Shown here piece by piece: positions 18,684 to 35,245 of a DNA stretch of 49,042 nucleotides; the first letter of the stretch is position 1, and every line of letters begins with the position of its first letter. The notes under the pieces were generated by a model. That model was not told the origin of the DNA. It made no database searches and was given only the letters and a program-made list of their open reading frames with translations. The translations under genes were made by a program, and so were the position numbers. This DNA is from Gemmatimonadaceae bacterium. GTDB taxonomy: Bacteria > Gemmatimonadota > Gemmatimonadetes > Gemmatimonadales > Gemmatimonadaceae. The stretch is from the NCBI GenBank assembly GCA_019694735.1, contig JAIBBJ010000115.1:1-49042 (forward strand), read 5' to 3'.

Positions 18684-18832
18684 GCCGAAAGCTAGTCGGG
18701 GCAAGGCCTTACGGGCAGGGGCGCCACGTTGACGCTCCCACCCGTCCGCCCCCAGTTTGCAGAGGTCCGCCGATACCGAACCGTGACCCGTCCGGCCTGC
18801 ACGCGCCGGCGGGCGACCGGCATCTTCCCCGC

Positions 18833-19486
18833 GTGCCAGGCTCCTCCTTCGCCGTGTCGCCGAAACCGCTCATCATCGGGATCGCCGGTGGCACCGGCTC
18901 CGGCAAGTCCACCGTCGCCCATCGCGTCGCCGAGTCCCTCGCCGGCACGCAGGCGGCGTTCATCGACATGGACGCCTACTACCGCGACCACCGCCACCTC
19001 TCGATGGAAGAGCGGCGGCGCGTGAACTGGGACCATCCCGACGCGTTCGACACGGCCCTCCTGGCCGAGCACCTCGAGGCGCTCGGCCGCGGCGAGGCGA
19101 TCGACAAGCCGGTCTACGACTTCACGCAGCACGCGCGTGCCCCGCAGACGGTGCGGATCGAGCCGGCCGACGTGATCGTGATCGACGGCATCCTGCTGCT
19201 GGTGGACGAGCGCGTGCGCCGCGTGTGCGACATCAAGGTCTTCGTGGACACCGATGCCGACATCCGGCTCGTGCGCCGCATCCGCCGCGACATGGCGGTG
19301 CGGGGCCGGCCACTCGAGGAGATCCTCGACCAGTACCAGCACACCGTGCAGCCGATGCACCTGCAGTTCGTCGAGCCGTCCAAGCGCTACGCCGACCTCA
19401 TCATCCCGCGCGGCGGCGAGAACACCGTCGCGATCGAGCTCCTCATCGCCTCCATCGCCCGGCGCCTCGCCGGTTCCCCCGCGTGA
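18833..19486 (+). CDS. udk: Uridine kinase
   Basis: The 217-residue P-loop kinase phosphorylates uridine or cytidine to the monophosphate for pyrimidine salvage. The Walker A G-G-T-G-S-G-K-S-T is at 19-27. D-M-D-A-Y-Y-R-D, N-W-D-H-P-D-A-F-D, K-P-V-Y-D-F and D-T-D-A-D-I-R-L-x-R-R-I-R-R-D are classic Udk motifs. The start is GTG at 18833; a second GTG at 18854 gives a start closer to the family norm. The gene overlaps the following phoB-like regulator by GTGA and is divergent from the nucleotidase operon. It thus ties nucleoside salvage to the phosphate regulators. Confidence 0.95.
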   Translation: MPGSSFAVSPKPLIIGIAGGTGSGKSTVAHRVAESLAGTQAAFIDMDAYYRDHRHLSMEERRRVNWDHPDAFDTALLAEHLEALGRGEAIDKPVYDFTQHARAPQTVRIEPADVIVIDGILLLVDERVRRVCDIKVFVDTDADIRLVRRIRRDMAVRGRPLEEILDQYQHTVQPMHLQFVEPSKRYADLIIPRGGENTVAIELLIASIARRLAGSPA

Positions 19487-20196
19487 CCGCGGCCACCGGC
19501 TCCGACCGCATCCTCGTCGTGGACGACGAGCCCGACATCGTCGCGCTCGTCGTCTACCATCTCGCGCGGGCCGGCTACAAGGTCTCCTCGGCCTCGACGG
19601 GCACCGACGCGCTCACCCTCGCCAAGCGCGAGCGCCCCGCGCTCGTCGTGCTGGACCTGATGCTGCCCGGGATGTCGGGGTTCGACGTGCTCGCCCGGCT
19701 GCGCGAGGACGAATCCACCGCCGGCATCGCGGTGCTGATGCTCACGGCGCGGAAGGAGGAGCCGGACCGCATCCGCGGGCTCGAGCTCGGCGCGGACGAC
19801 TACCTCACCAAGCCCTTCTCGCCGCAGGAGCTCGTGCTTCGCGTGGCCGCGATCCTGCGCCGCGTCGCCTCGAGTGGCGAGGTGGCCGACGTCCTCACCA
19901 TCGGCCCCATCCGCGTGGACCGCGCCGCGCACCGGGTGACGGTGAACGGCCATGAGGTGGAACTGACGCCGCTCGAGTACAAGCTGCTGCTCACGCTCGC
20001 CGAGCGGCGCGGCCGCGTGCAGGGCCGCGCCCAGCTGCTCGAGACCGTCTGGGACGCCGCGCCCGACATCCAGACGCGGACCGTGGACATGCACGTCCAG
20101 CGGCTGCGCACCAAGCTCCACCCGGCCGGCGACCTCATCGAGACGGTGCGCGGCTTCGGCTACCGCCTGAAGGCGCCGGGCGTGCGCGAGGCCTGA
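19483..20196 (+). CDS. phoB: PhoB-like OmpR-family response regulator
   Basis: The 237-residue protein has a receiver domain (about 8-125) with the acidic pair in V-V-D-D-E-P, the phospho-acceptor Asp58 in V-L-D-L-M-L-P-G and the K-P-F loop. A winged-helix DNA-binding domain (about 138-233) follows, with the recognition-helix region R-T-V-D-M-H-V-Q-R-L-R and the G-F-G-Y-R-L end. The start GTG overlaps the udk stop and the kinase gene follows after 7 bp. The PhoB name rests on the phosphate genes around it and the PhoR-like kinase; sequence alone only shows the OmpR/PhoB family. It is the likely binder of the 11-bp repeats at 22012 and 31173. Confidence 0.9.
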   Translation: MTAATGSDRILVVDDEPDIVALVVYHLARAGYKVSSASTGTDALTLAKRERPALVVLDLMLPGMSGFDVLARLREDESTAGIAVLMLTARKEEPDRIRGLELGADDYLTKPFSPQELVLRVAAILRRVASSGEVADVLTIGPIRVDRAAHRVTVNGHEVELTPLEYKLLLTLAERRGRVQGRAQLLETVWDAAPDIQTRTVDMHVQRLRTKLHPAGDLIETVRGFGYRLKAPGVREA

Positions 20197-20203
20197 GGGC
20201 CCC

Positions 20204-21925
20204 GTGCGCCTGACCCAACGCCTCCTCCTCGGCGCCTTCCTCGTCGTCGGCTTCCTGGCCGTCGCGATCATCGCGGTCGTGGACCGGCAGCTCGGCGACC
20301 GCCTGAGCGACGACGCGACGACCTTCCTCGCCCGCGAGGCGCGCCTCGTCGGCGAGCTCTGGCAGCGCGACTCCGCCTTCGCCGACTCGCTCGCGGACCG
20401 CAGCGGCCGCGCGCTCGGCCGCCGAGTCACCCTCATCCGCCCGGACGGCGTGGTCATCGGGGACTCGGAGTTCGACGACGCCGGCCTCCGCGGCCTGCAG
20501 AACCACGCGACGCGACCGGAGGTCGCGCGCGCGCTCGCCGGCGAGACCGGGACCTCGCGGCGCCCGTCGCCCAGCACGGGAGACGAGGAGCTCTACGTCG
20601 CGGTGCCGGTCGAGGGGCGCGGGGTCGCCCGCGTCTCGTTGCCGACCGCGAGTCTCGCCGCGGTCATCCGGCAGGCGCGGCGGGACGTCGGCACCGCGGT
20701 CGGCCTCGCGCTGTTCGGGGCGCTGCTCATCGCCTTCCTCTTCTCGCGGTCGGTCTCGCGGCCGGTCGAGGAGCTCCGCGACGTCGCGCAGGCCATCGCC
20801 GACGGCGACCTCGCGCGGCGTCCCACCCTGCGCGGCGCCGGCGAGGTGGGCGAGCTCGGCCTCGCCCTCCGGTCGCTCGCCGAGCAGCTCTCGGCGCGCC
20901 TCCGGCTGCTCGAGGCCGATGAACAGCTGCTGCTCCAGCTCACGGAATCGCTGAACGAGGGCGTCATCGCGGTGGACACGCGGCAGCGGGTGGTCCGCAT
21001 CAATGAGACCGCGCGCCGACTGCTCGGCGCACGCGCGCCGCTCCCCTTCCCGCTCGACCAGCTGCCGCGCGAGGTCGCGCTGCGCGACGCGCTGCTCGCG
21101 GCCTTCGCCGGGGAGACGACCGAGGGCGCCGAGGTGGTGATCGCCGGCCGCACGCTGAACGTCACCGCACGGCCGCTCGCCGAGGGCGGCGCGGTGCTGG
21201 CGCTCTTCGACCTCACGCGGGTCCGGCGGCTCGAGGCCGTCCGGCGCGACTTCGTGGCCAACGTCTCCCACGAGCTCCGCACGCCGCTGACGATCGTGGG
21301 CGGCTTCGCCGAGACGCTCGCCGGCGACGACGTGCCGCTGGAGGTGCGGCGCGGGTTCGCCGAGCGCATCCTCGGCAACACGCGGCGGATGCAGCGCATC
21401 GTGGACGACCTCCTCGACCTGTCGCGCATCGAGTCAGGGGGCTGGGTGCCGAATCCGGTCACGATCCCGCTGGCGACCGTTGCGAGCGACGTGCTGAGCG
21501 CGGCCCGCGATGCCGCGGCACAGAAGGGGCTGGCGCTCGAGACCGCGATCGCGCCGGACGCGACCACGGTGCATGCGGACCCGACCGCCCTCCGCCAGGT
21601 GCTCGGGAACCTCGTGGACAACGCCGTCCGCCACACGCCCAGCGGCCGGGTGACGCTGCTCTCGCGGCGGCACGAGCGCGGCGTGGTGGTCGGGGTCGAG
21701 GACACCGGCGTCGGGATCGCCCCCGAGCACCTGCCCCGCATCTTCGAGCGCTTCTATCGCGTGGACCCCGGGCGGTCGCGCGAGCAGGGAGGCACCGGAC
21801 TCGGCCTCGCGATCGTGAAGCACCTGGTCGAGGCCCACGGCGGCCGGGTCCGGGCCGAGAGCGAGCCCGGGCGCGGCACGACCATCACGGCGCGCTTCCC
21901 GGACGCCCCTCCCGCGGCGCGCTGA
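20204..21925 (+). CDS. phoR: PhoR-like sensor histidine kinase
   Basis: The 573-residue inner-membrane kinase starts at GTG. It has TM1 at about 7-27, an extracytoplasmic sensor of about 135 residues, and TM2 at 163-182. A HAMP linker (185-235), a PAS-like domain (240-340) and the phospho-acceptor region with His356 in V-S-H-E-L-R-T-P-L-T follow. The C-terminal ATPase shows an N-box (L-V-D-N-A-V-R-H), G-V-E-D-T-G-V-G-I, an F-box (R-I-F-E-R-F-Y-R-V-D) and G-G-T-G-L-G-L-A-I-V-K. TM-HAMP-PAS-kinase is the PhoR plan, though classic PhoR has almost no periplasmic loop; here it is long, so direct sensing outside is possible. Confidence 0.9.
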   Translation: MRLTQRLLLGAFLVVGFLAVAIIAVVDRQLGDRLSDDATTFLAREARLVGELWQRDSAFADSLADRSGRALGRRVTLIRPDGVVIGDSEFDDAGLRGLQNHATRPEVARALAGETGTSRRPSPSTGDEELYVAVPVEGRGVARVSLPTASLAAVIRQARRDVGTAVGLALFGALLIAFLFSRSVSRPVEELRDVAQAIADGDLARRPTLRGAGEVGELGLALRSLAEQLSARLRLLEADEQLLLQLTESLNEGVIAVDTRQRVVRINETARRLLGARAPLPFPLDQLPREVALRDALLAAFAGETTEGAEVVIAGRTLNVTARPLAEGGAVLALFDLTRVRRLEAVRRDFVANVSHELRTPLTIVGGFAETLAGDDVPLEVRRGFAERILGNTRRMQRIVDDLLDLSRIESGGWVPNPVTIPLATVASDVLSAARDAAAQKGLALETAIAPDATTVHADPTALRQVLGNLVDNAVRHTPSGRVTLLSRRHERGVVVGVEDTGVGIAPEHLPRIFERFYRVDPGRSREQGGTGLGLAIVKHLVEAHGGRVRAESEPGRGTTITARFPDAPPAAR

Positions 21926-22011
21926 GGGGCGAGCCCCCCGGGCCCGTCCGTGCCCGCCCCCCCGGCGCCGCTCCCGGGCTACGCCTTCGGGCGGCACCGC
22001 CGGACGCCCCG

Positions 22012-22044
22012 CCGTTACAAATCCGTTGCGGTGCCGTGCGTTGT
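22012..22044 (+). promoter_or_regulatory. Putative PhoB box upstream of the TonB receptor
   Basis: Three consecutive 11-base units each begin with CCGT: CCGTTACAAAT, CCGTTGCGGTG and CCGTGCGTTGT. They end 84 bases before the ATG at 22129. PhoB-type regulators bind direct repeats with an 11-bp period. The first unit contains CGCCGTTACAA (22010-22020), which occurs identically upstream of the porin at 31131. A 14-base palindrome GTCCGGTACCGGAC (22043-22056) follows at once and may be part of the same control region. No convincing -10 box could be fixed. The repeat pattern is seen; PhoB binding is inferred. Confidence 0.5.
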
Positions 22045-22128
22045 CCGGTACCGGACCGTCGGAGGTTTGAGGCGTCCCCTGCGGCCCGCCGCATGGGGCC
22101 TGACCCATCAAATCCTCACGAGACGCCC

Positions 22129-24903
22129 ATGCGCCGTGTCCTGCAGTCCCTCGCGTTGCTCCTCCTCTGCCTCGCGCTGCCGTCGTCCGGCGCCGCGCAG
22201 GCCCCGACCACCGGCCGGATCGTCGGCCGCGTGCTCGACGCCGCCAACGGCGCCGGGCTGGCGGATGCCGGCATCCAGGTGGTCGGCACCACCCTCGGCA
22301 CGATGTCCGGCGTCGAAGGGCGGTTCACCCTCGGGAACGTCCCCGCCGGCACGGTGACGATCATCGTTCGCCGCATCGGGTATGCGCCGAAGACCGTCAC
22401 CGGCCTGTTCCTCGAGGCCGGCAAGACCCTCCAGCAGGACGTCTCGCTCTCGGCCGCGACCGTGCAGCTGTCGGCGACGGTCGTCACCGCGGAGAGCGAG
22501 CGCGGGTCGGTCAACGCCGCGCTCGACGCGCAGAAGAACTCCGTCAACGTCGTCTCCAGCATCACCGCGGAGCAGATCGCGAAGAGCCCGGACGGCGACG
22601 CCGCGCAGGCCGTCGGCCGCGTGGCGGGCGTCAGCGTGCAGGACGGCAAGTACGTGTTCGTCCGCGGCCTCGGCGACCGCTACACGCAGACCTCGCTCAA
22701 CGGCGCCCGCATCCCGAGCCCCGAGCCCGAGAAGAAGGTGGTGCCGCTCGACCTGTTCCCGACGGGCCTGCTCCAGACGATCACCACCATCAAGACCTTC
22801 ACCCCCGACCAGCCGGGCGACTTCTCCGGCGCGACGGTGGACATCCAGACGCGCGAGTTCCCCGCGCAGCGGACCTGGGTGATGAGCACCAGCACCGGCG
22901 GCAGCGACGCCGTCATCGGGCGACGGGTCCTCATGCCGGCGCTCGTGAACGGCGACCTGGTCGCCGCGGGCGCGGCCGCCCGCGCGCTCCCGTCGTTCAT
23001 CCAGCGGTTCGGCAACTTCGCGACCGCGTCCCCGCTCCAGTCGGACTTCAACCGGATGGTGTCGGAGTTCCGGAACTCGTGGACCCCGCGCGCGCAGGAA
23101 GGGCTCGTGAACGGCTCCACGTCGCTCTCGGTGGGCGGCAACGACCCGGTGCTCGGCCGCCGGATCGGCTACCTCGTCTCGGGGACCTATTCGTACTCGC
23201 AGGAGGCGCGCCTCGACCAGCGCCGCGCCCTCGCCATCGCGCAGACCGGCGCCGCACCGACCGAGGTGGACCGCTACGAGGGCGAGTCGGGCCGCTCGAG
23301 CGTCCTCTGGGGCGGCCTCGCCAACGTCAGCACGCTCGTCGGCACGCGCACCCGCGTCGCGCTCAACAACACCTACAACCGCACGATGGACTCCGAGGCG
23401 CGGAGCGAGAGCGGCCTCTCGGAGAACCTCGGCATCCCCTTCACCATCGCGCGCCAGCGCTACGTCGAGCGCTCGGTGCGCTCGTCGCAGCTCCTGGTGC
23501 AGTCCGACCTCACGGCCCGTCAGAAGCTCGAGCTCTCGCTCTCGGCGTCGGGCGTGACGCGCAAGGAGCCGGACCGGAGCGAGTTCGTGCGCGCGATCTT
23601 CACCGACCCGACGACCGGCGCGACGATGGCCCCGCAGTGGTTCTCCTCCTCGAACGAGGGCGCGGTGCGCAGCTTCGCCGACCTCGGCGAGGATGCCTAC
23701 GAGGCCCGCGGCTCCTACCGGCTGGAGTTCGGCCCGGCCGGCCGGACGCTCGCGGTCAAGGTCGGCGGGCTCACCCGCCACGCCGACCGTGACGCCTTCA
23801 GCGCGTCGTACAGCATCAACGCCCCGTCGCTGAGCCAGGCCGAGCGCGAACTGGCCGCCGAGCGCATCTTCGACGGCCGCTACACCGGCACCGGCGACGC
23901 GGTCTGGCGCGTGACGCCGATCGGCGTCGGCGGTTCGTACACCGCGAGCGACTGGCTCTCGGCCGGCTTCGCGATGGTCGAGAAGGACTTCGGCACCCGC
24001 TGGCAGCTCATCACGGGAGCCCGCGTCGAGTACTCCGATGTGCTCGTCCAGGCGCAGCCGACGGTCGGCGCGACGACCAGCACGAACCCGGTGTTCACCG
24101 ACGTGCTGCCCGCGATCGCGCTCACCTTCCGCCCGACGCCGACGATGAACCTCCGCGCCTCGGCGTCGCAGACGGTCTCGCGCCCCGAGTACCGCGAACT
24201 CGCCCCGATCCAGTACCGCGAGGTGATCGGGTTCGACAACGTCATCGGCAATCCCGACCTGCAGCGCGCGCTGATCCAGAACTACGACCTGCGATGGGAG
24301 TGGTACCCGGGCGCCGGCGAGGTGGTGAGCGTCGCGCTCTTCGCCAAGCGCTTCACGAACCCCATCGAGCGCGTCTACCGCGGCTCGTCGGGCACCCGCA
24401 TCATCACCTTCGTGAATGCCGCCGGCGCCGACAACTACGGCGTCGAGCTCGAGGGGCGGAAGTCGCTCGACTTCCTCGGCGATGCGCTCGCCAACTTCTC
24501 GCTCTCGGCCAACGCGACGCTGATGGACTCGCGGATCCGCCTCGACGGGCAGTCGATCGCCGTCACGAACAGCTCGCGGGCGATGGTCGGCCAGGCCCCG
24601 TACATGCTCAACACCGGCCTCACGTGGACGAGCAACACCGGCGCCTCGAGCGCGACGCTCCTCTACAACGTCGTCGGCGCGCGGATCACCGAGGCCGGCG
24701 AGCTCCCGCTTCCCGACGTCACCGAGCGCGAGCGGCACATCGTCGACCTGTCCGTGCGGTTCCCGCTCGGTGAGCGCCTCTCGGCGCGCGTGGACGCGCG
24801 CAACCTGCTCGACGCGCCGTACCAGTGGACGCAGGGCAGCGTCGTGCGCGAGTCGTATCGCGTGGGCCGCAGCTACACGGTGGGGTTGACGTTCCGCCCC
24901 TGA
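22129..24903 (+). CDS. TonB-dependent outer-membrane receptor
   Basis: The 924-residue protein has a signal peptide cleaved after about A-A-Q (residue 24). A carboxypeptidase-regulatory-like domain (about 28-110) follows, then a plug domain (about 125-270) with A-V-G-R-V-A-G-V-S-V-Q-D-G-K-Y-V-F-V-R-G-L-G-D-R-Y and P-E-P-E-K-K-V-V-P-L-D. A large beta-barrel ends in a canonical aromatic strand (V-G-L-T-F-R-P). It imports a substrate across the outer membrane with TonB energy. The substrate cannot be read from sequence; its position directly after phoBR, a shared Pho-like box and the PstS/Ppx genes downstream suggest a phosphate-containing compound. The ATG at 22129 fits the signal peptide. Confidence 0.93.
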   Translation: MRRVLQSLALLLLCLALPSSGAAQAPTTGRIVGRVLDAANGAGLADAGIQVVGTTLGTMSGVEGRFTLGNVPAGTVTIIVRRIGYAPKTVTGLFLEAGKTLQQDVSLSAATVQLSATVVTAESERGSVNAALDAQKNSVNVVSSITAEQIAKSPDGDAAQAVGRVAGVSVQDGKYVFVRGLGDRYTQTSLNGARIPSPEPEKKVVPLDLFPTGLLQTITTIKTFTPDQPGDFSGATVDIQTREFPAQRTWVMSTSTGGSDAVIGRRVLMPALVNGDLVAAGAAARALPSFIQRFGNFATASPLQSDFNRMVSEFRNSWTPRAQEGLVNGSTSLSVGGNDPVLGRRIGYLVSGTYSYSQEARLDQRRALAIAQTGAAPTEVDRYEGESGRSSVLWGGLANVSTLVGTRTRVALNNTYNRTMDSEARSESGLSENLGIPFTIARQRYVERSVRSSQLLVQSDLTARQKLELSLSASGVTRKEPDRSEFVRAIFTDPTTGATMAPQWFSSSNEGAVRSFADLGEDAYEARGSYRLEFGPAGRTLAVKVGGLTRHADRDAFSASYSINAPSLSQAERELAAERIFDGRYTGTGDAVWRVTPIGVGGSYTASDWLSAGFAMVEKDFGTRWQLITGARVEYSDVLVQAQPTVGATTSTNPVFTDVLPAIALTFRPTPTMNLRASASQTVSRPEYRELAPIQYREVIGFDNVIGNPDLQRALIQNYDLRWEWYPGAGEVVSVALFAKRFTNPIERVYRGSSGTRIITFVNAAGADNYGVELEGRKSLDFLGDALANFSLSANATLMDSRIRLDGQSIAVTNSSRAMVGQAPYMLNTGLTWTSNTGASSATLLYNVVGARITEAGELPLPDVTERERHIVDLSVRFPLGERLSARVDARNLLDAPYQWTQGSVVRESYRVGRSYTVGLTFRP

Positions 24904-24946
24904 GCCGCCCCGGACGCCGCCCGCGCGGCGTGACAGAGCCGTGACC

Positions 24947-24980
24947 GGAACGCCGCCGTGTGCAGACACGGCGGCGTTCC
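24947..24980 (+). terminator. Strong hairpin after the TonB receptor gene
   Basis: GGAACGCCGCCGTGT (24947-24961) and ACACGGCGGCGTTCC (24966-24980) form a perfect 15-bp stem with a 4-base GCAG loop, followed by CCTTTCG. It lies 43 bases after the receptor stop and 69 before the next start. The T-tract is weak, so it may be a partial terminator, or a stem that protects the receptor mRNA 3' end. Confidence 0.65.
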
Positions 24981-25049
24981 CTTTCGTGGCGTCGGCGTGC
25001 GCGTGGTGCGCCGCGACGTGACGTGACGACCCTCCACTCGGATACCCCA

Positions 25050-26465
25050 ATGCTCCGACCGACCGGACGCATCCTCCTCGCCGCCCTCGCCGCCGCGACC
25101 CTGTCCGCCTGCAACAACGAAGGCGATGGCGGCACCGGCCCCATCGCACCGGGCGCCGCGGTGATCGCGGCCAACATCACCGCCAACCGGACGCTGTACG
25201 CGGACACCGTCTACACCCTGCAGGGCTTCATCCAGGTCACCAACGGCGCGACGCTCACCATCCAGCCCGGCACCGTGATCCAGGGCGACTACGCCACCGT
25301 CGGCTCCTCGCTCTTCATCACGCGCGGCGCCCGGATCGTGGCCAACGGCACCGCGGCGGAACCCATCGTGTTCACCTCGTCGCGGCCGGTCGGGCAGCGC
25401 CAGGCGGGCGACTGGGGAGGCCTGGTCATCATCGGCAACGGCGTGATCAACCGCGCGGCGCCGGTGATCCTCGAGGGCACCGGCACCGGGCCCACCAACC
25501 CGCAGCAGGAGTACTCCGGCGGAAACAACAACGCCGACAACTCCGGCACGCTGCGCTACGTCCGCGTCGAGTTCGCCGGCTACGCCACCGCGACCGACGC
25601 CGAGCTCAACAGCTTCACGTTCGCCGCGGTCGGCAGCGGCACCACGCTCGAGTACCTCGAGTCGCTCTATGGCCTCGACGACTCCTTCGAGTTCTTCGGC
25701 GGCGCGGTGGACGGCAAGTACCTGGTGTCGTACGAGTCGGGCGACGACCACTTCGACATGAGCGAGGGCTACGTCGGCCGCCTCCAGTTCCTGCTCGGCT
25801 ACCAGAGCGGGCTCAACGTGCCGCGCGCCGGCGCCGGCAACACCTCCAACGACCCGCAGGGCATCGAGAACGACGGCTGCAACGGCACCGGCTGCACCGG
25901 CGGCCAGAACTCGACGCCCTTCACCGCACCCGTCGTCGCCAACTTCACGCTCATCGGCCCGGGCACCGGCACCGGCGTGGACGCCACCAACGGCGGCTAC
26001 GGCGCCATCCTCCGCCGCGGCACCGGCGGCTACTACGTCAACGGCGTGCTCGCCCGCTGGCCCAAGGGCGCGATCGGCCTGCGCGACTCGACCACGACGA
26101 AGGTCCGGTTGAACGACGGCCTGCTCGACATCCGCAACGTCTTCGTCGCCGAGGCGCCCTCGATCTTCACGGCAGCCTCCGGCGGGTTCGTGCTCACCGA
26201 CTCCGTCGCGCGCGGCATCACCCGCGACGGCGCCGCGACGACCGCGGGGCTCTTCACCACCTTCACGATGCCCGCCGCGTCCGCCGCCTCCTTCGACTGG
26301 ACACCGCCCGCCGGCTCCACGCTCGCCTCGGGCGGCCTGCAGACGTTCAGCGGGAACCTCGCCACCGCCGCGGGCACCTTCGTGCTCGGCACCGGGTACC
26401 GTGGCGCGGCTGCGCCCAACGGCACCAAGTGGTGGGCGGGCTGGACCAGCTACGCGAAGAACTGA
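25050..26465 (+). CDS. Beta-helix-like surface or periplasmic lipoprotein
   Basis: The 471-residue product has a lipoprotein signal ending L-S-A-C at residue 20, then a Gly-rich linker. The body is full of short strands and turns rich in Gly, Asn and Thr. It includes G-A-T-L-T-I-Q-P-G-T-V-I-Q-G-D and G-x-W-G-G-L-V-I-I-G-N-G, repeated strand patterns of a right-handed beta-helix. Two pairs of short acidic or Cys-containing loops (F-E-F-F-G-G, D-D-H-F-D-M; G-C-N-G-T-G-C-T-G-G) look like a ligand or metal site. It follows a TonB receptor in the same direction, the usual place for a substrate-capturing partner lipoprotein. I do not recognise a named family. Confidence 0.8.
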   Translation: MLRPTGRILLAALAAATLSACNNEGDGGTGPIAPGAAVIAANITANRTLYADTVYTLQGFIQVTNGATLTIQPGTVIQGDYATVGSSLFITRGARIVANGTAAEPIVFTSSRPVGQRQAGDWGGLVIIGNGVINRAAPVILEGTGTGPTNPQQEYSGGNNNADNSGTLRYVRVEFAGYATATDAELNSFTFAAVGSGTTLEYLESLYGLDDSFEFFGGAVDGKYLVSYESGDDHFDMSEGYVGRLQFLLGYQSGLNVPRAGAGNTSNDPQGIENDGCNGTGCTGGQNSTPFTAPVVANFTLIGPGTGTGVDATNGGYGAILRRGTGGYYVNGVLARWPKGAIGLRDSTTTKVRLNDGLLDIRNVFVAEAPSIFTAASGGFVLTDSVARGITRDGAATTAGLFTTFTMPAASAASFDWTPPAGSTLASGGLQTFSGNLATAAGTFVLGTGYRGAAAPNGTKWWAGWTSYAKN

Positions 26466-26479
26466 GTCCCCTAGATTCC

Positions 26480-26520
26480 TCGCGGGGCCGGGGCCCGGAC
26501 ACCGGGTCCCGGCCCCGCGA
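26480..26520 (+). terminator. 19-bp hairpin after the beta-helix lipoprotein gene
   Basis: TCGCGGGGCCGGGGCCCGG (26480-26498) pairs with CCGGGTCCCGGCCCCGCGA (26502-26520) along 19 positions with a single G-U wobble and a 3-base loop ACA. It starts 15 bases after the stop codon at 26465. No T-run follows, so it is either a factor-assisted terminator or an mRNA-stabilising stem. Confidence 0.65.
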
Positions 26521-26544
26521 GCGTCCCGCCCCCCGGATCCGCCG

Positions 26545-27156
26545 ATGCGCCTTCCCGTCCTCCCGCTCCTGATCGCCCTCGTGACCGGCCTCGCCTGCCG
26601 CGAGGCGGCACCCGCGCGCCGGGCTTCCGAGTCCCCGGCGCCCCCGCTCGGGGTCGTCGATTCCGCCCTGCCGATCCCCCTGCTGCTCGATCGCTTCCGT
26701 GCGACGGTCGCCGACACGCCGGCGGCACTCGCCGGCGGCGCGACCTCCCCCGAGCGGCTCACGCGGGCGCTGCTCAGCGCCCTCAGCGCCCACGACACCG
26801 CTGCGCTCCGCGGCCTGACCGTCAGCCGCGCCGAGTTCGCCTGGCTGTACTATCCCGAGTCGCGCTACACGCGCCCGCCCTACGAGCTCGGGCCGGAACT
26901 GGTGTGGCTGACCACGAGCGCGGCGAACGAGAAGGGCGCCGGCCGCCTCCTCCAGCGCTACGGGGGCCGTCCGCTGCGCCTCGACGGCGTGCGCTGCCCG
27001 GCGCCAGCCGAGACGGAGGGGACGAACGCCGTACTCCGTGGTTGCCTCGTGCGGTTCGCCGCCGGCGATTCCGCCGTGCGTGAGCTCGCGCTCTTCGGTG
27101 CGTTGCTCCGCCGCGACGGCCGCTACAAGTTCCTGTCATTCGCCAACGACCTCTGA
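26545..27156 (+). CDS. Small putative lipoprotein of unknown function
   Basis: The 203-residue protein has a hydrophobic N-terminus ending T-G-L-A-C (Cys18), a plausible but imperfect lipobox. After a Pro/Ala-rich linker comes a mostly helical first half (T-P-E/E-R-L-T-R-A-L-L-S-A-L-S-A-H-D-T-A-A-L-R-G-L) and a mixed alpha/beta second half with a Cys pair (R-C-P near 153 and G-C-L near 171). It ends R-Y-K-F-L-S-F-A-N-D-L. I do not recognise it. The PstS-like gene starts 10 bp later, so it is likely in the same transcript and works at the membrane or in the periplasm in phosphate metabolism. Confidence 0.75.
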   Translation: MRLPVLPLLIALVTGLACREAAPARRASESPAPPLGVVDSALPIPLLLDRFRATVADTPAALAGGATSPERLTRALLSALSAHDTAALRGLTVSRAEFAWLYYPESRYTRPPYELGPELVWLTTSAANEKGAGRLLQRYGGRPLRLDGVRCPAPAETEGTNAVLRGCLVRFAAGDSAVRELALFGALLRRDGRYKFLSFANDL

Positions 27157-27166
27157 CCCACGCGCC

Positions 27167-28267
27167 GTGACCGCTCCCCGATCCCTCGGCTGGCTCCGCG
27201 CCGCCGCGCTCCTCTGGATCGGGTCGCTCGCCGGGTTCGCCATCGGGATCGAGTGGTACCGGTCGCGCCCGCCCGCGCCGCCGCCGCCCTCCGGGCACAT
27301 CGACCTCGTCGGCGCCGGCGCCACGTTTCCGTATCCGCTCTACCGCCGTTGGTTCGCCGACTACCGGGCGGAGACGGGCGTGCGCATCAACTACTACTCC
27401 GTCGGCACCGGGGAAGGCGTCCGTCTCCTGCTCGATGGCGAGGCGGACTTCGGCGCGGCCGACCGCCCGCTCAGCGCCGCAGAGCGCGCGCGCGCCCGCT
27501 GCGGGCCGGTGGAGATCGCGACCGCGGTCGGGGCCGTCGCCGTCGTCGTGAACCTCCCGCGGATCGCGAGCCCCGTGCGTCTGGACCCCGAGGTCCTCGC
27601 CGGGATCTACCTCGGCGGGATCACCCGCTGGGACGACCCGGCGCTGCGCGCGCTCAACCCCGCGCTCGCCCTCCCGGCGATGCCGATCCGGCTGGCGCAC
27701 CGCGGCCCGACGAGCGGCACCGGGGCCGTGCTGGCGGCGTACCTCGATGACAGTCCGGCGTGGCGCGCCGCGCGGCGCGGGGCGGCCGCCCCGTGGGCGG
27801 TCGGCGAACGCATCGAAGGGAACGAAGGCGTGGCCGCGCACGTGCAGGCCAACGAGGGCGGGCTGGGATTCGTCGAGCTCGCGTACGCGCAGCAGAACCG
27901 CCTGGCGACGGCCGCCTTGCGCAACGCGGCCGGCGCCTTCGTGCGCCCCGACTCGTTCGCCCTCGCGCGGGCCGCGGAGGAGCTGCTCGCGCCCGCCGGC
28001 GCCGACACCCTGCTGGCGCTCGTGGGGGCGCGCGGCGCGGACGCGTACCCGGTCGGCGCCGTGACCCGCCTCGTCGTCGACCGCGCCCTCGGCGACTCGA
28101 CGCTCGCGGCCCACTTCATCGCGTTCGCCACGTGGGCCCTCCGCGACGGGGGCGCGAGCGCCGCCCAACTCGGCTACGTTCCGTTGCCGGCACCCGTGCG
28201 CCGGCGCGCCCACGCCCAGCTCGCCGCCCTCGTCCCGGGGCGGTGCCCGACGCCCCGCACCGACTGA
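27167..28267 (+). CDS. Membrane-anchored PstS-like phosphate-binding protein
   Basis: The 366-residue protein has one N-terminal hydrophobic segment (about 9-28) with no lipobox and no clear cleavage site, so it is probably an anchored extracytoplasmic protein. The PstS fold is clear: L-V-G-A-G-A-T-F-P-Y-P-L-Y at 43-55, the Y-x-S-V-G-T-G-E-G phosphate loop, the D-F-G-A-A-D-R-P-L segment, the G-I-T-R-W-D-D-P motif and the S-G-T-G phosphate loop near 184. No pstC, pstA or pstB gene is in the window. It may act as a sensor or capture protein. GTG start, 10 bp after the previous stop; its TGA overlaps the ppx ATG by one base. Confidence 0.88.
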   Translation: MTAPRSLGWLRAAALLWIGSLAGFAIGIEWYRSRPPAPPPPSGHIDLVGAGATFPYPLYRRWFADYRAETGVRINYYSVGTGEGVRLLLDGEADFGAADRPLSAAERARARCGPVEIATAVGAVAVVVNLPRIASPVRLDPEVLAGIYLGGITRWDDPALRALNPALALPAMPIRLAHRGPTSGTGAVLAAYLDDSPAWRAARRGAAAPWAVGERIEGNEGVAAHVQANEGGLGFVELAYAQQNRLATAALRNAAGAFVRPDSFALARAAEELLAPAGADTLLALVGARGADAYPVGAVTRLVVDRALGDSTLAAHFIAFATWALRDGGASAAQLGYVPLPAPVRRRAHAQLAALVPGRCPTPRTD

Positions 28268-29862
28268 TGGCCCTCCGCGCCCCCGACGGCCCCTACCGCC
28301 AAGCCCGCGACGACGCCGGCCGCCGCATCGCCGCCATCGACATCGGCTCGAACTCGATCCGCCAGATCGTCGCCGACGTCTCCCCCGACGGCCAGATCCG
28401 GATCGTCGACGAGATGAAGGCGGCCCCGCGCCTCGGTGCCGGCCTGAGTGCCACCGGCCAGCTCGACGAGCGGCACATGGACGAGGCCGTCGAGGCGCTC
28501 AGCCGCATGGCGACGCTCGCGCGCCAGCAGGGGTGCAAGCGGATCGAGGTCGTCGCGACGAGCGCCGTGCGCGACGCCCGCAACGGCGCCACCTTCCTCT
28601 CCCGCGTGCGTCGCGAGACGGGCCTCCGACCGCGCGTGCTCGTCGGCGAGGAGGAGGCGCGCCTCGCGTTCCGGTCCGCGCTCGCCCACTTCGAGCTCGG
28701 GGCCGGCCGCTCGGTCGTGATGGACATCGGCGGCGGCTCGCTCGAGCTCGCCCTCGCGGCCGAGGGACTCGTGGAGCGGCTCATCACCTTCCCCTTCGGC
28801 GCGATCCGCCTCACCGAGCAGTTCCTGGCCGGCAAGGCGGGCCCCAAGGGCGTGCGGAAGCTGCGGAAGCACGTACGCGCCGCGATCAAGAAGGTGCTCC
28901 CGGTGCGCGACTGGCGCGGCGCCGAGGTGATCGGCAGCGGCGGGACCTTCACCAACCTCGCCGGGATGTACCTCGCCCGGCAGGGCATCAAGGTCCGGAG
29001 CGTGCACGGCACGCGCATCCCGCGGCACGAGGTCGAGCACATCCTCGAACAGCTGGCGACGATGACGGTGCAGGAGCGGCTGCAGGTCCCGGGCCTCAAC
29101 GCCGGCCGCGCCGACATCATCGTGGCCGGCCTCGCCGTCGCCGCCGAGGTGCTCGACCGCGTCGAGCCGCGCGAGCTGGCGGCGTCCGGCTTCGGGATCC
29201 GCGAGGGACTGCTCCTGGAGAGCGCGCAGGTGATGCCCGTCATCGCCGATCCCGGCGAGGCGCGCGCGCGCTCCGTGCTCGGCTTCGCCGAGCGCTGCCA
29301 CTACGAGGCGCCGCACTCGAAGCAGGTGCAGCAGCTCGCCCTGCAGCTCTTCGATGCGCTCGGGGCGCGCCTCGGCTGCGCCCCCGCCGAGCGCCAGACC
29401 CTGGCGGACGCCGCCCTGCTGCATGACGTGGGCTACCACATCAACTACGAGGGGCACCACAAGCACTCGTACCACCTCATCCTCCACGCCGACCTGCTCG
29501 GCATCGGGCCGGAGGAGCAGGTGGTGATCGCGCAGGTGGCCCGCTACCACCGCGGCGGCGAGCCGAAGCGCAAGCACCTGGCGTGGTGGGAGCTCGACCG
29601 CGACGGCCGCGAGAAGGTCCGGCGCCTCGCCGCGCTGCTGCGCGTCGCGGACGGCTTCGACCGCGGGCACGCGAGCGCGGTCGAGCGCGTGAAGGTGCGC
29701 TGGCTCGAGCGCGCGATCCGCATCACGCCGGTGCCGCGGCGCGCCAATGACCCGATGCGGCTCGAGCTGTGGGGGGCGGCGCGCAAGGCGCAGCTGCTCG
29801 AGGCGGTCGCCGGCCTGCCCGTCGAGATCGTGGCCCCCGACGGGCAGGTCGTGCAGGGCTGA
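28267..29862 (+). CDS. ppx: Exopolyphosphatase / pppGpp phosphohydrolase (Ppx/GppA)
   Basis: The 531-residue cytoplasmic enzyme removes terminal phosphates from polyphosphate or from pppGpp. Its actin-like phosphatase core shows A-A-I-D-I-G-S-N-S-I-R at 22-32, E-V-V-A-T-S-A-V-R-D-A, V-G-E-E-E-A, V-M-D-I-G-G-G-S-L-E-L and V-I-G-S-G-G-T-F-T-N-L. An HD-type C-terminal domain (about 340-480) has L-L-H-D-V-G-Y-H and R-Y-H-R. The length fits the long E. coli-like form with an HD domain. It lies downstream of the PstS-like gene and faces the polyphosphate kinase operon, so synthesis and breakdown genes are neighbours. Confidence 0.93.
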   Translation: MALRAPDGPYRQARDDAGRRIAAIDIGSNSIRQIVADVSPDGQIRIVDEMKAAPRLGAGLSATGQLDERHMDEAVEALSRMATLARQQGCKRIEVVATSAVRDARNGATFLSRVRRETGLRPRVLVGEEEARLAFRSALAHFELGAGRSVVMDIGGGSLELALAAEGLVERLITFPFGAIRLTEQFLAGKAGPKGVRKLRKHVRAAIKKVLPVRDWRGAEVIGSGGTFTNLAGMYLARQGIKVRSVHGTRIPRHEVEHILEQLATMTVQERLQVPGLNAGRADIIVAGLAVAAEVLDRVEPRELAASGFGIREGLLLESAQVMPVIADPGEARARSVLGFAERCHYEAPHSKQVQQLALQLFDALGARLGCAPAERQTLADAALLHDVGYHINYEGHHKHSYHLILHADLLGIGPEEQVVIAQVARYHRGGEPKRKHLAWWELDRDGREKVRRLAALLRVADGFDRGHASAVERVKVRWLERAIRITPVPRRANDPMRLELWGAARKAQLLEAVAGLPVEIVAPDGQVVQG

Positions 29863-29889
29863 GGCCGGCGCCGAGGCGCGGGGCGCGCC

Positions 29890-31131
29890 TCAGATCCCGA
29901 CTTCGATCGACGAGCGCAGGCCCCAGGCGCCGCGCGTCGCCCCGGTGAGCTGGTTGCGGAAATCGTCGTGGAGGAGCTCGCCCTGCACCTTCACTTTGTG
30001 CCCCTTCAGGTAGCGGGTGAGGCCGAACCCGACCTGCCGCTGCCGGTCGGCGCCCGCGAGGCCGGCGAGCGCGCCGTCGGGCGTCACCATCGAGAAACGC
30101 AGCGCCGGCTCGAGGCCGGAGTGGAGCAGGTACGACGCCTGGGCCGTCACGCCGTCGCCGGTGAGGACGTAGCGGGTCGAGGTGCCATCGGTCGTGATCG
30201 GGTCGGGCGCCGTGCGGCGGTGCAGCTCGGCCGCGACGGCGAGACCGCGGTGCTTGTAGAGCAGGTCGGCCTCGTAGGTGTTCATCGACCGCGGCGCGAA
30301 GAGCGGGCGGCCGAGCTGGCCGCCGGTGCGGACCGCGCGGTCGTTGTGCTGCATCCCGGCCGCGATCGAGAGCTTGGGGGTCGGCTCGCGGCGCAGGTCG
30401 CCCTCGAAGTAGTCGCCGCCGCCGGTGAAGGCGCCGAACGGGAGGAGCTCCACCCGTCCCGTGTAGGCGAGGCCGTTGCTCCCCACCGCCGGGTTGCGTC
30501 CCTCGCCGCTCGTGACGGCGCCGCGGAGGATGAACGGCAGCCCGGCGTCAGTGTGTACGTAGTGCGCGAAGAGGCCCACGTCACGGTCGATCGTGAACGC
30601 CCCGTTGACGATCGAGCGGTCCGCGAACTGCAGTTCGCCGGAGGAGTTCACCCGCTGGCGGTTCCCCGGCAGCTTGCCCTGGCCCCCGACGAGGGCGAGG
30701 CGCCGGGTCGCCTGGAAGGTCACGTACGCGTCGCGCAGCACGTTCGGGAAGTTCGAGTTCTCGAAGTCCTGGTCGCCGCGGGTGAACGAGAGCTGCACGT
30801 TCACCTTGAGGCGCGGGTCCCACACCACCGACTCGAGCCGGAGCCGCATCCGCCGCACCGCGAGGTTCGCGCTCGCGATGTCGAGGTCGTCGTCGCTCAC
30901 GGTGGTGAGCTGGGCGAGCTGCTGCACGCGGAAGCGGAGCGTCAGGTAGGTGAAGCCGTCCGCCGCATTGAAGGTGAGCCCGCGGTCATTGAACTCGACG
31001 GCGGGCTTGGCAGGCGCGGCCGGCGCCGTGCCCTGCGCGACCGCCAGCACGGGGAGGAACAGGCCGAGGAGCAGCGACGCGCAGGGCGCGGTGCAACGGT
31101 TCGGCAACGAGTACGTCACGGAAATGGACAT
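29890..31131 (-). CDS. Phosphate-selective porin O/P family protein
   Basis: The 413-residue protein has a signal peptide (cleavage near V-A-Q, residue 33). Its 16-strand-type barrel sequence starts N-D-R-G-L-T-F-N-A-A-D-G-F and continues with alternating strands. It ends in a short strand that finishes S-I-E-V-G-I. OprO and OprP of Pseudomonas are outer-membrane pores selective for polyphosphate and phosphate. ATG at 31131 was chosen for the signal peptide; a longer frame would cross the regulatory repeats. It has its own regulatory region between it and ppk, with an 11-bp direct repeat. It converges with ppx, 27 bp apart. Confidence 0.9.
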   Translation of the reverse strand: MSISVTYSLPNRCTAPCASLLLGLFLPVLAVAQGTAPAAPAKPAVEFNDRGLTFNAADGFTYLTLRFRVQQLAQLTTVSDDDLDIASANLAVRRMRLRLESVVWDPRLKVNVQLSFTRGDQDFENSNFPNVLRDAYVTFQATRRLALVGGQGKLPGNRQRVNSSGELQFADRSIVNGAFTIDRDVGLFAHYVHTDAGLPFILRGAVTSGEGRNPAVGSNGLAYTGRVELLPFGAFTGGGDYFEGDLRREPTPKLSIAAGMQHNDRAVRTGGQLGRPLFAPRSMNTYEADLLYKHRGLAVAAELHRRTAPDPITTDGTSTRYVLTGDGVTAQASYLLHSGLEPALRFSMVTPDGALAGLAGADRQRQVGFGLTRYLKGHKVKVQGELLHDDFRNQLTGATRGAWGLRSSIEVGI

Positions 31132-31172
31132 GACCCGGAATCTCCACGATTCATTGAGGTTGGGCCATTCCC

Positions 31173-31194
31173 GATTGTAACGGCGATGTAAACA
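31173..31194 (-). promoter_or_regulatory. Putative PhoB box upstream of the phosphate porin
   Basis: Read on the minus strand, two 11-base units stand in tandem: TGTTTACATCG (31194-31184) and CCGTTACAATC (31183-31173). TTACA recurs with an 11-base period. The word CGCCGTTACAA spans their junction and is identical to the one upstream of the TonB receptor at 22129. The box ends 41 bases before the porin ATG, a good distance for a -35-overlapping activator site. PhoB control is inferred. Confidence 0.55.
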
Positions 31195-31258: not shown

Positions 31259-33448
31259 TCAGGGCTCTTCGGGGATCGCCAGGAACGCCATGCTCGACGA
31301 CGGCGGCCGCCCGGCCGGCTTCGGATTCGCGAGCGGGCTCACCGGCAGCGGCCACGCCGCCGTGTCGCGGTGCGTGCCCCACGAGTCGCGGAGCAGGATC
31401 CGGTGGGTCGCCCGTTCGCCCGCCGGCCCCGGCTGCACCTGCACGTAGCTGCCGTCGGGCTGCAGCGTCCACGCCTGCCGGTTGTCCTCGAGGCAGACGT
31501 CGAGCACCTGCTGCAGCCGCTCCTGGAAGTGGGGGTTCGCCACCGGCGTCACGACCTCGACGCGGCGATCGAAGTTCCGGGGCATCCAGTCGGCCGAGCC
31601 GAAGAAGTACTCCGGCTGGCCGTCGTTGCCGAACATCCAGATCCGCGAATGCTCCAGGAAGCGGCCGATGATGCTGCGCACCCGGATGCGGTCGCTCAGG
31701 CCCTGGACGCCCGGGCGGAGGCAGCAGATCCCGCGCACGACCAGGTCCACCTCCACGCCCGCCGAGGAGGCGCGGTAGAGGGCCTCGATGCACTCGGGAT
31801 CCACGAGGGCGTTCATCTTCGCGATGATCCGGCCGGGACGCCCGGCCATCGCGTGCGCCGTCTCGCGGTCGATCAACCCCAGCACCCGCGCCCGCAGGTT
31901 CACCGGGGCGACCAGCAACCGGCGGTACTCGGCTCGCCGCGAGTACCCGGTGAGCGAGTTGAACAGGTCGCTGATGTCGGCGCCGATCGCCTCGTCGCAG
32001 GTCAGCAGGCCGATGTCGGTGTAGATGCGCGCCGTGCGGGTGTTGTAGTTCCCGGTGCCGATGTGCACGTAGCGCCGGATGCCGTCGTGCTCCTTCCGCA
32101 CCACGAGCGCCGTCTTCGTGTGCGTCTTCAGGCCGGGGAGCCCGTAGACCACATGCACGCCGAACGACTCGAGCGTCCGCGCCCACGCGATGTTGTTGAT
32201 CTCGTCGAACCGCGCCTGCAGCTCGACGAGCACCGCGACCTGCTTGCCGCGCTGCGCTGCCTGCGTCAGCGCCTGCACGATCGCGCCGTCGCCGGAGGTC
32301 CGGTACAGCGTCATCTTGATCGCCAGCACCTGCTCGTCGCGGGCCGCGGACTCGATGAACGTCTCCACCGACGCGCCGAACGAGTCGAACGGGTGGTGCA
32401 CCAGCACCTCCCGCTCGCGGATGACGTCGAAGATCGAGCGCGACGCGTCGCGGAGTTCCGACGGGACCACGGCGATGAACGGCGGGTCGCGGTGCTCCGG
32501 CAGGTCCACCGAGGCGAGCCCGAGCAGGTCGCTCACGTCGAGCAGCGGTCCCGGGGCGATCACCTCGCGCTCGGAGAGCGGCGCCATCTCGGGGGCCTCG
32601 CTCGCCCGCAGCTCGTCCAGCAGCAGCGCGCGGAGGTGCTCCGGCATCCCCTCCTGCACCTCCAGCCGCACCACCTCGCCGAACCGCCGCTGGAAGAGCT
32701 GCTCCTCGATCATCGCGAGCAGGTCCTCCGGCTCCTCGGTATGCTGGATGTCGAGGTCGGAGTAGCGCGTGAGGCGGAAGAGGTGGCAGCCGAGCACCTC
32801 CATCCCCGGGAAGAGGGCCTCGAGGCGCGCCGCGATCAGCGCTTCCAGCGGCACGAAGCTGTTCGGCCGGCCGGTCGGCACCCAGCGCGGGAGCGACTTC
32901 GGGACCTTCACCCGGGCGAACCGGACCTCCCCCGACTCGGGATCGCGCAGCTCGACCGCGAGCGAGAGCGTGAGGTTCGAGATGTAGGGGAACGGGTGCC
33001 CCGGGTCGACCGCCAGCGGCGTCAGCACCGGATACACCTGCGCCTCGAAGAACTGGTCGATGCGCGCGTGCTCGTCCTCGGCGAGCTCGTCCATCGCGAG
33101 GAGCCGCACCCCCACGCGCCGGAGCAGCGGCAGCAGCACCGCGTGCAGGAGGTGCCGCTGCCGCGCGATGAGCGCGCGGACGCGCGCGTCGATCAGGTCG
33201 AGCTGCTCCGCCGGCGAGAGGCCGTCCGCCGCGGTCTGCAGCACGCCGGCGGCGAGCTGCCGCCGGAGTCCCGCGACGCGGACCATGTAGAACTCATCGA
33301 GGTTCGACGCGAAGATCGCGAGGAACTTCACCCGCTCGAGCAGCGGGGTCCGCTCATCCTCCGCCTCGTGGAGCACCCGCGCATTGAACTCGAGCCACGA
33401 GAGCTCGCGGTTCAGGAACGCCGGGTTCTTCGAGGCGAGGGCGTGCAT
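31259..33448 (-). CDS. ppk1: Polyphosphate kinase 1
   Basis: The 729-residue cytoplasmic enzyme reversibly transfers the gamma phosphate of ATP to polyphosphate. It has the N domain (N-R-E-L-S-W-L-E-F-N-A-R-V), the H domain (H-P-F-P-Y-I-S-N-L-T-L), H-P-F-D-S-F and A-I-K-M-T-L-Y-R-T. The catalytic region is L-K-T-H-T-K-T-A-L with the auto-phosphorylated His, followed by H-I-G-T-G-N-Y-N. Length and motifs are complete. It starts 9 bp after the PiT gene stop and belongs to the DUF47-PiT-ppk unit. The porin downstream may also be reached by read-through. Confidence 0.97.
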   Translation of the reverse strand: MHALASKNPAFLNRELSWLEFNARVLHEAEDERTPLLERVKFLAIFASNLDEFYMVRVAGLRRQLAAGVLQTAADGLSPAEQLDLIDARVRALIARQRHLLHAVLLPLLRRVGVRLLAMDELAEDEHARIDQFFEAQVYPVLTPLAVDPGHPFPYISNLTLSLAVELRDPESGEVRFARVKVPKSLPRWVPTGRPNSFVPLEALIAARLEALFPGMEVLGCHLFRLTRYSDLDIQHTEEPEDLLAMIEEQLFQRRFGEVVRLEVQEGMPEHLRALLLDELRASEAPEMAPLSEREVIAPGPLLDVSDLLGLASVDLPEHRDPPFIAVVPSELRDASRSIFDVIREREVLVHHPFDSFGASVETFIESAARDEQVLAIKMTLYRTSGDGAIVQALTQAAQRGKQVAVLVELQARFDEINNIAWARTLESFGVHVVYGLPGLKTHTKTALVVRKEHDGIRRYVHIGTGNYNTRTARIYTDIGLLTCDEAIGADISDLFNSLTGYSRRAEYRRLLVAPVNLRARVLGLIDRETAHAMAGRPGRIIAKMNALVDPECIEALYRASSAGVEVDLVVRGICCLRPGVQGLSDRIRVRSIIGRFLEHSRIWMFGNDGQPEYFFGSADWMPRNFDRRVEVVTPVANPHFQERLQQVLDVCLEDNRQAWTLQPDGSYVQVQPGPAGERATHRILLRDSWGTHRDTAAWPLPVSPLANPKPAGRPPSSSMAFLAIPEEP

Positions 33449-33457
33449 GGGCGGGCC

Positions 33458-34489
33458 TCAGGCCCGGAACATCTCGACGAGCAGGTACGACACGGCCGCG
33501 ACGGCGGCCGACGCGGGGATCGTGATGACCCAGGCCCAGATCATCCGGCTGGCCACGCCCCACCGCACCGCCGAGAGGCGGTGGGTCGCGCCGACGCCGA
33601 CGATGGCACCCGAGATCGTGTGCGTCGTGCTCACCGGGATCCCCATCGCGGTCGCGAGGAAGATCGCCGAGGCCCCGCCCGTCTCGGCGCAGAACCCGCC
33701 GATCGGCCGCAGCTTGGTCACGCGGGACCCGAGGGTGTGCACGATGCGCCACCCGCCCATGAGCGTGCCCATGGCGATGGCGAAGTGCGCGCCGAGCTTG
33801 ACCCAGAACGGGATCTCCTCGCCGCTGGTGATGTAGAAGTGGCGCAGGAACCCGGTCTCGTTCGCGAAGTACGCCTGCGACGAGACGAGCAGCGAGACGA
33901 TGATCCCCATGGTCTTCTGCGCGTCGTTCGCGCCGTGCGACAGCGAGAAGAGCGCCGAGCTCGTGATCTGCATCCCGCGGAAGACGGGTTCCATCTTCGC
34001 CGGCCGCGAGTTCCGGAACAGCCAGGTGGTGCCCACCATCAGCAGCCAGCCCGCCGTCATGCCGATGAGCGGCGAGAGCACGATGAAGATGAGGGTCTTC
34101 GTCCACCCCGCCCCGATGATGGCGCCGAACCCGGCCTTCGTGACCGCCGCGCCCGCATACCCGCCGATCAGCGCGTGCGACGAGCTCGACGGGATGCCGT
34201 ACCACCACGTGATGAGGTTCCACGCGATGGCGCCGAGGAGGCCGGCGAGGATCACGTCGGGGTTCACCACCGCGATGTCGATCATCCCCTTCCCGATCGT
34301 CTTCGCGACGCCGGTGTCGAAGAGGAAGAGCGCGATGAAGTTGAACGTCGCCGCCCACGCCACCGCGGTGAACGGACTGAGCACCCGCGTCCCCACGATC
34401 GTGGCGATCGAATTCGCCGAGTCGTGGAAGCCGTTGATGTAGTCGAAGATGAACGCGACCAGGACGATCGCGAGGATGTACCAGACCAC
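33458..34489 (-). CDS. pit: PiT-family inorganic phosphate transporter
   Basis: The 343-residue protein is a low-affinity phosphate/cation symporter with about ten membrane segments in two inverted repeats. The signature G-F-H-D-S-A-N-S-I-A-T repeat opens the first half and S-H-G-A-N-D-A-Q-K-T-M-G the second. G-I-P-S-S-S-S-H-A-L-I-G-G and I-P-V-S-T-T-H-T-I-S-G are the paired motifs for the second signature. GTG at 34489 lies two bases after the stop of the PhoU-like gene. PiT proteins beside DUF47 proteins are common and usually work as a pair. Confidence 0.95.
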   Translation of the reverse strand: MVWYILAIVLVAFIFDYINGFHDSANSIATIVGTRVLSPFTAVAWAATFNFIALFLFDTGVAKTIGKGMIDIAVVNPDVILAGLLGAIAWNLITWWYGIPSSSSHALIGGYAGAAVTKAGFGAIIGAGWTKTLIFIVLSPLIGMTAGWLLMVGTTWLFRNSRPAKMEPVFRGMQITSSALFSLSHGANDAQKTMGIIVSLLVSSQAYFANETGFLRHFYITSGEEIPFWVKLGAHFAIAMGTLMGGWRIVHTLGSRVTKLRPIGGFCAETGGASAIFLATAMGIPVSTTHTISGAIVGVGATHRLSAVRWGVASRMIWAWVITIPASAAVAAVSYLLVEMFRA

Positions 34490-34491
34490 GA

Positions 34492-35103
34492 TCAGGAGTT
34501 CTTGAGGGAGATGCTCTCGAGGACGTTGGCCACGTCCTCGCACTCATCGACCGCGTGCTCGAGGTTGTCGAGGATCTCCTTCCACTTGATCACCTCGAGG
34601 GCGTCCGGCTTGCCCGAGAACAGCGACTCGATCGCGTCGGAGTAGATCGCGTCGGCCTTCTCCTCCAGCTCCTTCACCTTGCGCGCCGCCTTGTGCACCT
34701 CGGCGGGCTTCCGGATGTCCTTCACGCCGGCGGTCAGCACCGCCGAGCACTCCACCAGCACGTCCGTGAGCGCGATCGCCGCCGCCTGCTGGCGGTCGAT
34801 GTGGTACATCTTCGCCCGGCGCGCCGTGCCGTCCATGAGGTCGACGACGTTGTCGAGCCGGTTCGCGAGCAGGTGGATGTCCTCGCGGTCCAGCGGCGTC
34901 ACGAACGAGCGGTCGATCCGCTGCATGATCTCGTACGTCAGCTGGTCGGCGGCGTGCTCCTCCGCCTTGATCGCCTTCGTGAGTTCCTCGAGCCGCTGCG
35001 GCTGCGAGAAGAGGTCCTTGAGGAGCGCGGCCGACGACTTCAGGCGCGCGGAGAGCTGGTCGAAGAGGCCGAAGAAGCCTTCGTCCTTCGGAAGGAAGCG
35101 CAC
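34492..35103 (-). CDS. PhoU-like DUF47 family protein
   Basis: The 203-residue all-helical cytoplasmic protein begins at GTG with [14 protein letters not shown], the typical DUF47 start. It has the PhoU-fold metal motifs E-x-x-A-D-x-L in the first half ([19 protein letters not shown]) and E-x-x-A-D in the second ([10 protein letters not shown]), with the closing [10 protein letters not shown]. Such proteins regulate the adjacent PiT transporter. It is the first gene of the operon with pit and ppk1. Confidence 0.93.
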
Positions 35104-35206: not shown

Positions 35207-35245
35207 ACATGCCGAGCGGCCGACGGGCGGCCTGTTGCACGTTCG

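Follow-up and report, generated by a model that had tools for sequence, protein, structure and literature searches.

The window analysed here, a stretch of 49,042 nt from a member of the Gemmatimonadaceae, a family of bacteria from soils and lakes that has received little study, contains a phosphate island at 18.8-35.3 kb. On the plus strand one finds udk, phoB, phoR, the gene of a TonB-dependent receptor, a lipoprotein gene, a hypothetical gene, pstS, and ppx; the minus strand carries a porin gene, ppk1, pit, and the gene of a PhoU_div protein. By protein similarity, the nearest named relatives of the window are Gemmatimonas and Gemmatimonadaceae MAGs, and the gene order of the island is mostly preserved across relatives. 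The Gemmatimonadota phosphate island also turns up in L062, a contig whose record names Candidatus Kuenenia stuttgartiensis; contamination or a wrong name is therefore probable for this record.

The phoB gene (19483-20196, plus) codes for an OmpR/PhoB-type response regulator with receiver and Trans_reg_C domains. Its top NCBIfam model is the PhoB equivalog TIGR02154, at 247.2 bits, which is under the curated cut-off of 296.2. The product of phoR (20204-21925, plus) is a HAMP-PAS-HisKA-HATPase sensor kinase, the closest models of which, PnpS and PhoR, match below their cut-offs. The TonB-dependent receptor (22129-24903, plus) has plug and beta-barrel domains, and its conserved neighbour is the lipoprotein gene (25050-26465, plus), whose product shows a weak lipoprotein signal and matches no Pfam or NCBIfam family; distant relatives of this protein are found on Bacteroidota and proteobacterial plasmids. 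Further downstream, pstS (27167-28267, plus) encodes a phosphate-binding protein that is anchored to the membrane by its N terminus (TIGR00975, 252 bits, above cut-off). Among the genes of the minus strand, the porin gene (29890-31131), with an uncertain start codon, scores 18.4 bits against Porin_O_P (PF07396), below the gathering threshold of 20.9, ppk1 (31259-33448) codes for a polyphosphate kinase (TIGR03705, 832 bits), and pit (33458-34543) codes for a low-affinity phosphate transporter (PHO4, 302 bits) and follows the PhoU_div gene (86 bits).

Tandem 11-bp repeats at two promoters

The word CGCCGTTACAA is found twice in the whole genome of 3,523,100 bases, at 22010-22020 (plus) and at 31185-31175 (minus), ahead of the TonB receptor and of the porin, which confirms the initial annotation. 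The exact word occurs nowhere else in the genome and is therefore absent inside genes, and the reversed-word control gives 0 matches. Both copies lie within 11-bp direct repeats of the one phosphate island. At site 1, the TonB receptor box (22013-22056, plus), there are four tandem units, in order CGTTACAAATC, CGTTGCGGTGC, CGTGCGTTGTC, and CGGTACCGGAC, which together score 29.4 bits with a position weight matrix (PWM) learnt without the window. Site 2, or porin box A (31172-31193, minus), has two good units, GTTTACATCGC and CGTTACAATCG (31193-31172), and two degenerate further units, and its score of 15.3 bits is below that of site 1; by itself, it has no significance in a genome-wide PWM scan. 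The tandem arrangement with an 11-base period that had been noted at both sites is thus present, with four units in one case and two good units in the other.

The second unit of site 1 reads CGTTGCG and does not contain the TTACA core noted in the initial annotation. The spaced pair TTACA-N6-TTACA has a single occurrence genome-wide, upstream of the porin, and is absent from 100 of 100 shuffles of the window. Exact matches to this pair in 295 genomes of the class are a mixture of true sites and chance matches, and we retain them as a lead only.

A conserved motif with a fixed promoter geometry

De novo expectation maximization (EM) on the upstream regions of TonB receptor orthologues from 35 Gemmatimonadota loci (taken by protein similarity, with the window left out) finds one 46-bp motif in 33 of the 35, CGTKACAC--C CGTTGCAC--C CGTG------C CGA-ACC. 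This corresponds to four head-to-tail units of consensus CGTKACANNNC with a period of 11 bp. The initial annotation was right about the 11-bp repeats, but the real unit is broader than the one it described, and it had missed both a second porin box and the fixed geometry (see following). The conservation of the motif is not a by-product of the conservation of the phoR end, because in L062, L067, L070, and L082 the TonB gene is located away from phoR.

When the TonB promoters of relatives are aligned on unit 1, position +50 is A in all 31 of them and position +54 is T in 97%. The same columns in pst promoters have A50 in 68% and T54 in 89%, and neither set was selected on these columns. The two bases are four apart, as are A-11 and T-7 in -10 hexamers, and no -35 hexamer is visible in the aligned TonB promoters. 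In the window, the predicted -10 hexamer of the TonB promoter is GAGGTT (22062-22067, plus), with its A 50 nt past the start of unit 1, and that of the porin promoter is GAGATT (31139-31144, minus), with its A at exactly 50 nt; AGATTCC is found at +50 from porin box A in the window, in L036, and in L129. With these hexamers, four units would occupy promoter positions of roughly -61 to -18, overlapping the -35 region. The PhoB sites of E. coli also overlap this region (PMC3348028).

Orthologues of porin box A score 24.4-24.5 bits in L036 and L056, and 14.3 bits in L129, a member of the genus whose boxed porin has 80 bits to Porin_O_P. A second porin box, box B (31088-31120, minus), consists of three 11-bp units (19.8 bits) and, with the ATG at 31131 as start, overlaps the first porin codons. 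The spacing between boxes A and B is 73 bp, about seven helical turns, and is kept in L036 (5327) and L129 (3627), in the latter despite a different porin and with box B well 5′ of the porin start. Box B is unlikely to be the main activator site of the window's porin, because it has no -10 element 50 nt on and a transcript begun at that point would lose the signal peptide. It may provide a second promoter, cooperative binding, or restraint.

A sequence-only covariance model (R1), built from 30 TonB sites that do not include the window, was run against the whole genomes of 17 genus members. Site 1 is the top match of the window's genome (E = 9.9e-8). The runners-up are a match on another contig (G000, C195:4452, E = 0.05), which is within a gene and is taken as chance, and then porin box B (E = 0.155). 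Elsewhere in the genus, high-ranking matches stand ahead of a second pstS-pstC-pstA-pstB operon (L130), of the Porin_O_P gene (L129), of further TonB receptors, one of them with a phytase-like gene (L123, L124, and L132), of a PAP2 phosphatase and a divergent glycosyltransferase (L125), and of a CDP-alcohol phosphatidyltransferase (L128). Lipid-remodelling genes are among those concerned, and lipid remodelling is typical of phosphate starvation. The other functions encoded by these genes are also typical of it (PMC4415409). Family-wide, and with stricter filters, the R1 scan leaves 46 of 118 genomes without a match at E ≤ 0.02.

An independent gene set is provided by 40 family regions ending in pstC, picked by PstC similarity and scanned with the TonB-derived matrix; a few of these regions also contain TonB-lipoprotein neighbours. 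At 15 bits, the matches number 36 in sense and 2 in antisense orientation, distributed over 28 of the 40 regions, and the other 12 are without a box. Markov shuffles of the set give 0-2 matches with both strands summed. Once neighbours are merged, 34 matches are intergenic or at most 150 nt from a start versus 1 intragenic (P = 8e-24), and the exact word is likewise absent from genes in the window's genome; equal frequency inside genes would have refuted the initial annotation. The favoured places are directly upstream of pstS, the pstS/pstC gap, downstream of phoR, and the gap between the TonB receptor and the lipoprotein.

Weaker boxes are also present in the island. In the window's own gap between the TonB receptor and the lipoprotein, a box of 13.2 bits (24929-24950, plus) lies beside a hairpin; it is conserved in near relatives, with 11 of 32 above the 95% null. 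A putative autoregulatory box (18771-18792, plus; 13.1 bits) precedes udk, which opens the udk-phoB-phoR run, and 22 of 25 relatives have, above the 95% null, a CGATACANGACCGTGAC-type motif about 60 nt upstream of this gene. A weak reversed box is located at 35232-35258 (plus), near the start of PhoU_div-pit, and there is a similar one in L058 at 21721. Repression of orfA-pit by PhoB has been reported in Sinorhizobium meliloti (PMC3131613). Repression of pit by PhoB through the reversed box at 35232 is unsupported by a family scan of the regions upstream of PhoU_div, in which gene starts are uncertain.

A candidate Pho box and its alternatives

The genomes directly show the repeats, as well as how conserved they are, where they are placed, and that their geometry is fixed. 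Both words are very probably instances of a Pho box for the neighbouring PhoB, which would switch on phosphate genes. The lineage-specific Pho box suggested in the initial annotation is thus supported by the sense orientation, the intergenic placement, the association with phosphate genes family-wide, the fixed -10 distance, and the box of phoB-phoR itself. Its phoB-like gene beside site 1 exists, about 1.8-2 kb upstream, but the direct neighbour is phoR. From the placement, the period, and the apparent autoregulation, we infer that PhoB binds the box. Binding, activation, and the phosphate signal could be combined as follows. Phosphate starvation would be signalled via PhoR, and phosphorylated PhoB, encoded at the distance just given from site 1, would bind the box, its subunits filling head-to-tail up to four CGTKACANNNC units between about -61 and -18. 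PhoB would then bring RNA polymerase to a poor promoter, in which the -10 element, GAnnTT, keeps a constant distance and a -35 element cannot be recognised. The TonB receptor-lipoprotein-pstS-ppx genes would thereby be switched on, together with the porin and phoBR itself.

A motif of this type suits any tandem binder of the OmpR family, and other OmpR-type regulators are present in these genomes and could share it. The repeats might then be the site of a paralogous OmpR/PhoB-family regulator rather than of the neighbouring PhoB, and in a sister family (L048-L051) a PhoB-like pair, with about 38% identity to PhoB, indeed adjoins an 11-bp repeat of its own. However, the targets are phosphate genes in independent contexts, the phoBR operon among them, and we regard a paralogue as improbable. 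The repeat of L048, L049, L050, and L051 is TGTAAT-N5-TGTAAT and is reversed with respect to its two-component genes; this orientation suggests a separate system, which may be a distinct regulon using a similar code.

It is highly unlikely that TACAAT/TACAAA is a plain -10 hexamer, the 11-mer being shared by virtue of similar core promoters. The TACAAT of site 2 is one base off TATAAT, but a distinct -10 element is conserved 50 nt downstream, the motif recurs at an 11-bp period across four units, and relatives have TGACA and TTGCA in place of TTACA, by which the hexamer is ruined. As for simple coincidence, base composition alone predicts an estimated one or so occurrence of the word per genome. 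Yet both copies stand ahead of phosphate genes within a single stretch of 9 kb, and relatives conserve boxes at both positions, so that a chance identity of the two words is extremely improbable. A Pho box read by the neighbouring PhoB is the interpretation that we retain.

Among known systems, the core site of Bacillus subtilis PhoP consists of four TTAACA-like repeats at about -22 to -66. The Gemmatimonadaceae box shares with it the 11-bp period, the unit number, and a TTACA-like core, and is similarly placed with respect to the start, but it belongs to a Gram-negative phylum and has GC-rich unit flanks, and orthology of the sites cannot be claimed. The Pho box of E. coli PhoB likewise has 11-bp head-to-tail units, overlap with the -35 region, phosphate genes as targets, and an adjacent PhoB-PhoR pair (PMC4415409). 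It contains two units with a CTGTCAT core, whereas here there are typically up to four units of CGTKACANNNC, GC-rich outside the core, and the -10 element does not look like TATAAT. The Gemmatimonadaceae unit CGTKACA does not fit CTGTCAT, but this is not a required feature, because the Pho box consensus varies by species (PMC4415409). The PhoP box of Streptomyces also combines 11-bp direct repeats, a high-GC genome, and a variable unit number, with a GTTCACC core (PMC4415409) instead of the GTTACA/GTGACA found here. The pairing of a TonB receptor with a lipoprotein resembles, by its layout, that of Caulobacter cc0171 with the secreted lipoprotein ElpS (cc0170), which has a link to phosphate starvation (PMC2996285); cc0171 is, however, reported to be constitutive (PMC2996285), whereas the TonB gene here bears the box. 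At the level of sequence, there is strong support for classing the Gemmatimonadaceae box as a Pho box of known type whose sequence is specific to the lineage and whose promoter layout is unusually rigid.

Phosphate control in genomes without a recognised PstC

PstC above the family cut-off is missing in 14 of the 17 genus genomes, including the window's (it is found in 3), and PhoU is missing in 12 (it is found in 5, in two of them by partial or weak matches); some of these assemblies are incomplete, 11 being at least 90% complete. PhoBR and the box are generally retained in the genus despite these absences. In L075, L080, and L083, pstC-pstA-pstB-phoU lie between pstS and ppx, and in the window, L064, L068, L071, L074, L077, and L085, pstS is directly followed by ppx. 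Because relatives carry the four genes where the window has the pstS-ppx junction, the window's pstS is most simply explained as an orphan left by deletion. We put forward, tentatively and with considerable doubt, that the genus may have a Pho switch working without PstCAB and PhoU, by which the activity of PhoR is normally set, and in which the orphan membrane-anchored PstS or the periplasmic part of PhoR would report phosphate directly, and whose main output would be TonB-dependent uptake at the outer membrane. According to a published survey, phosphate uptake in the phylum proceeds mainly through pstSCAB (PMC10581226); with most of its genomes showing no PstC, the genus adds an exception.

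The literature searched, which covers few subscription journals, contains no description of a Gemmatimonas Pho box, and within it the present motif is the first readable phosphate-control code of the phylum. It provides a promoter rule that can be scored in Gemmatimonadaceae: four CGTKACANNNC units, 50 nt, then GAnnTT. It also points to the TonB receptor-lipoprotein pair as the leading target of phosphate starvation. Finally, with most genomes of the genus retaining PhoB-PhoR and the box but showing no PstC, and mostly no PhoU, Pst-independent phosphate sensing becomes testable.
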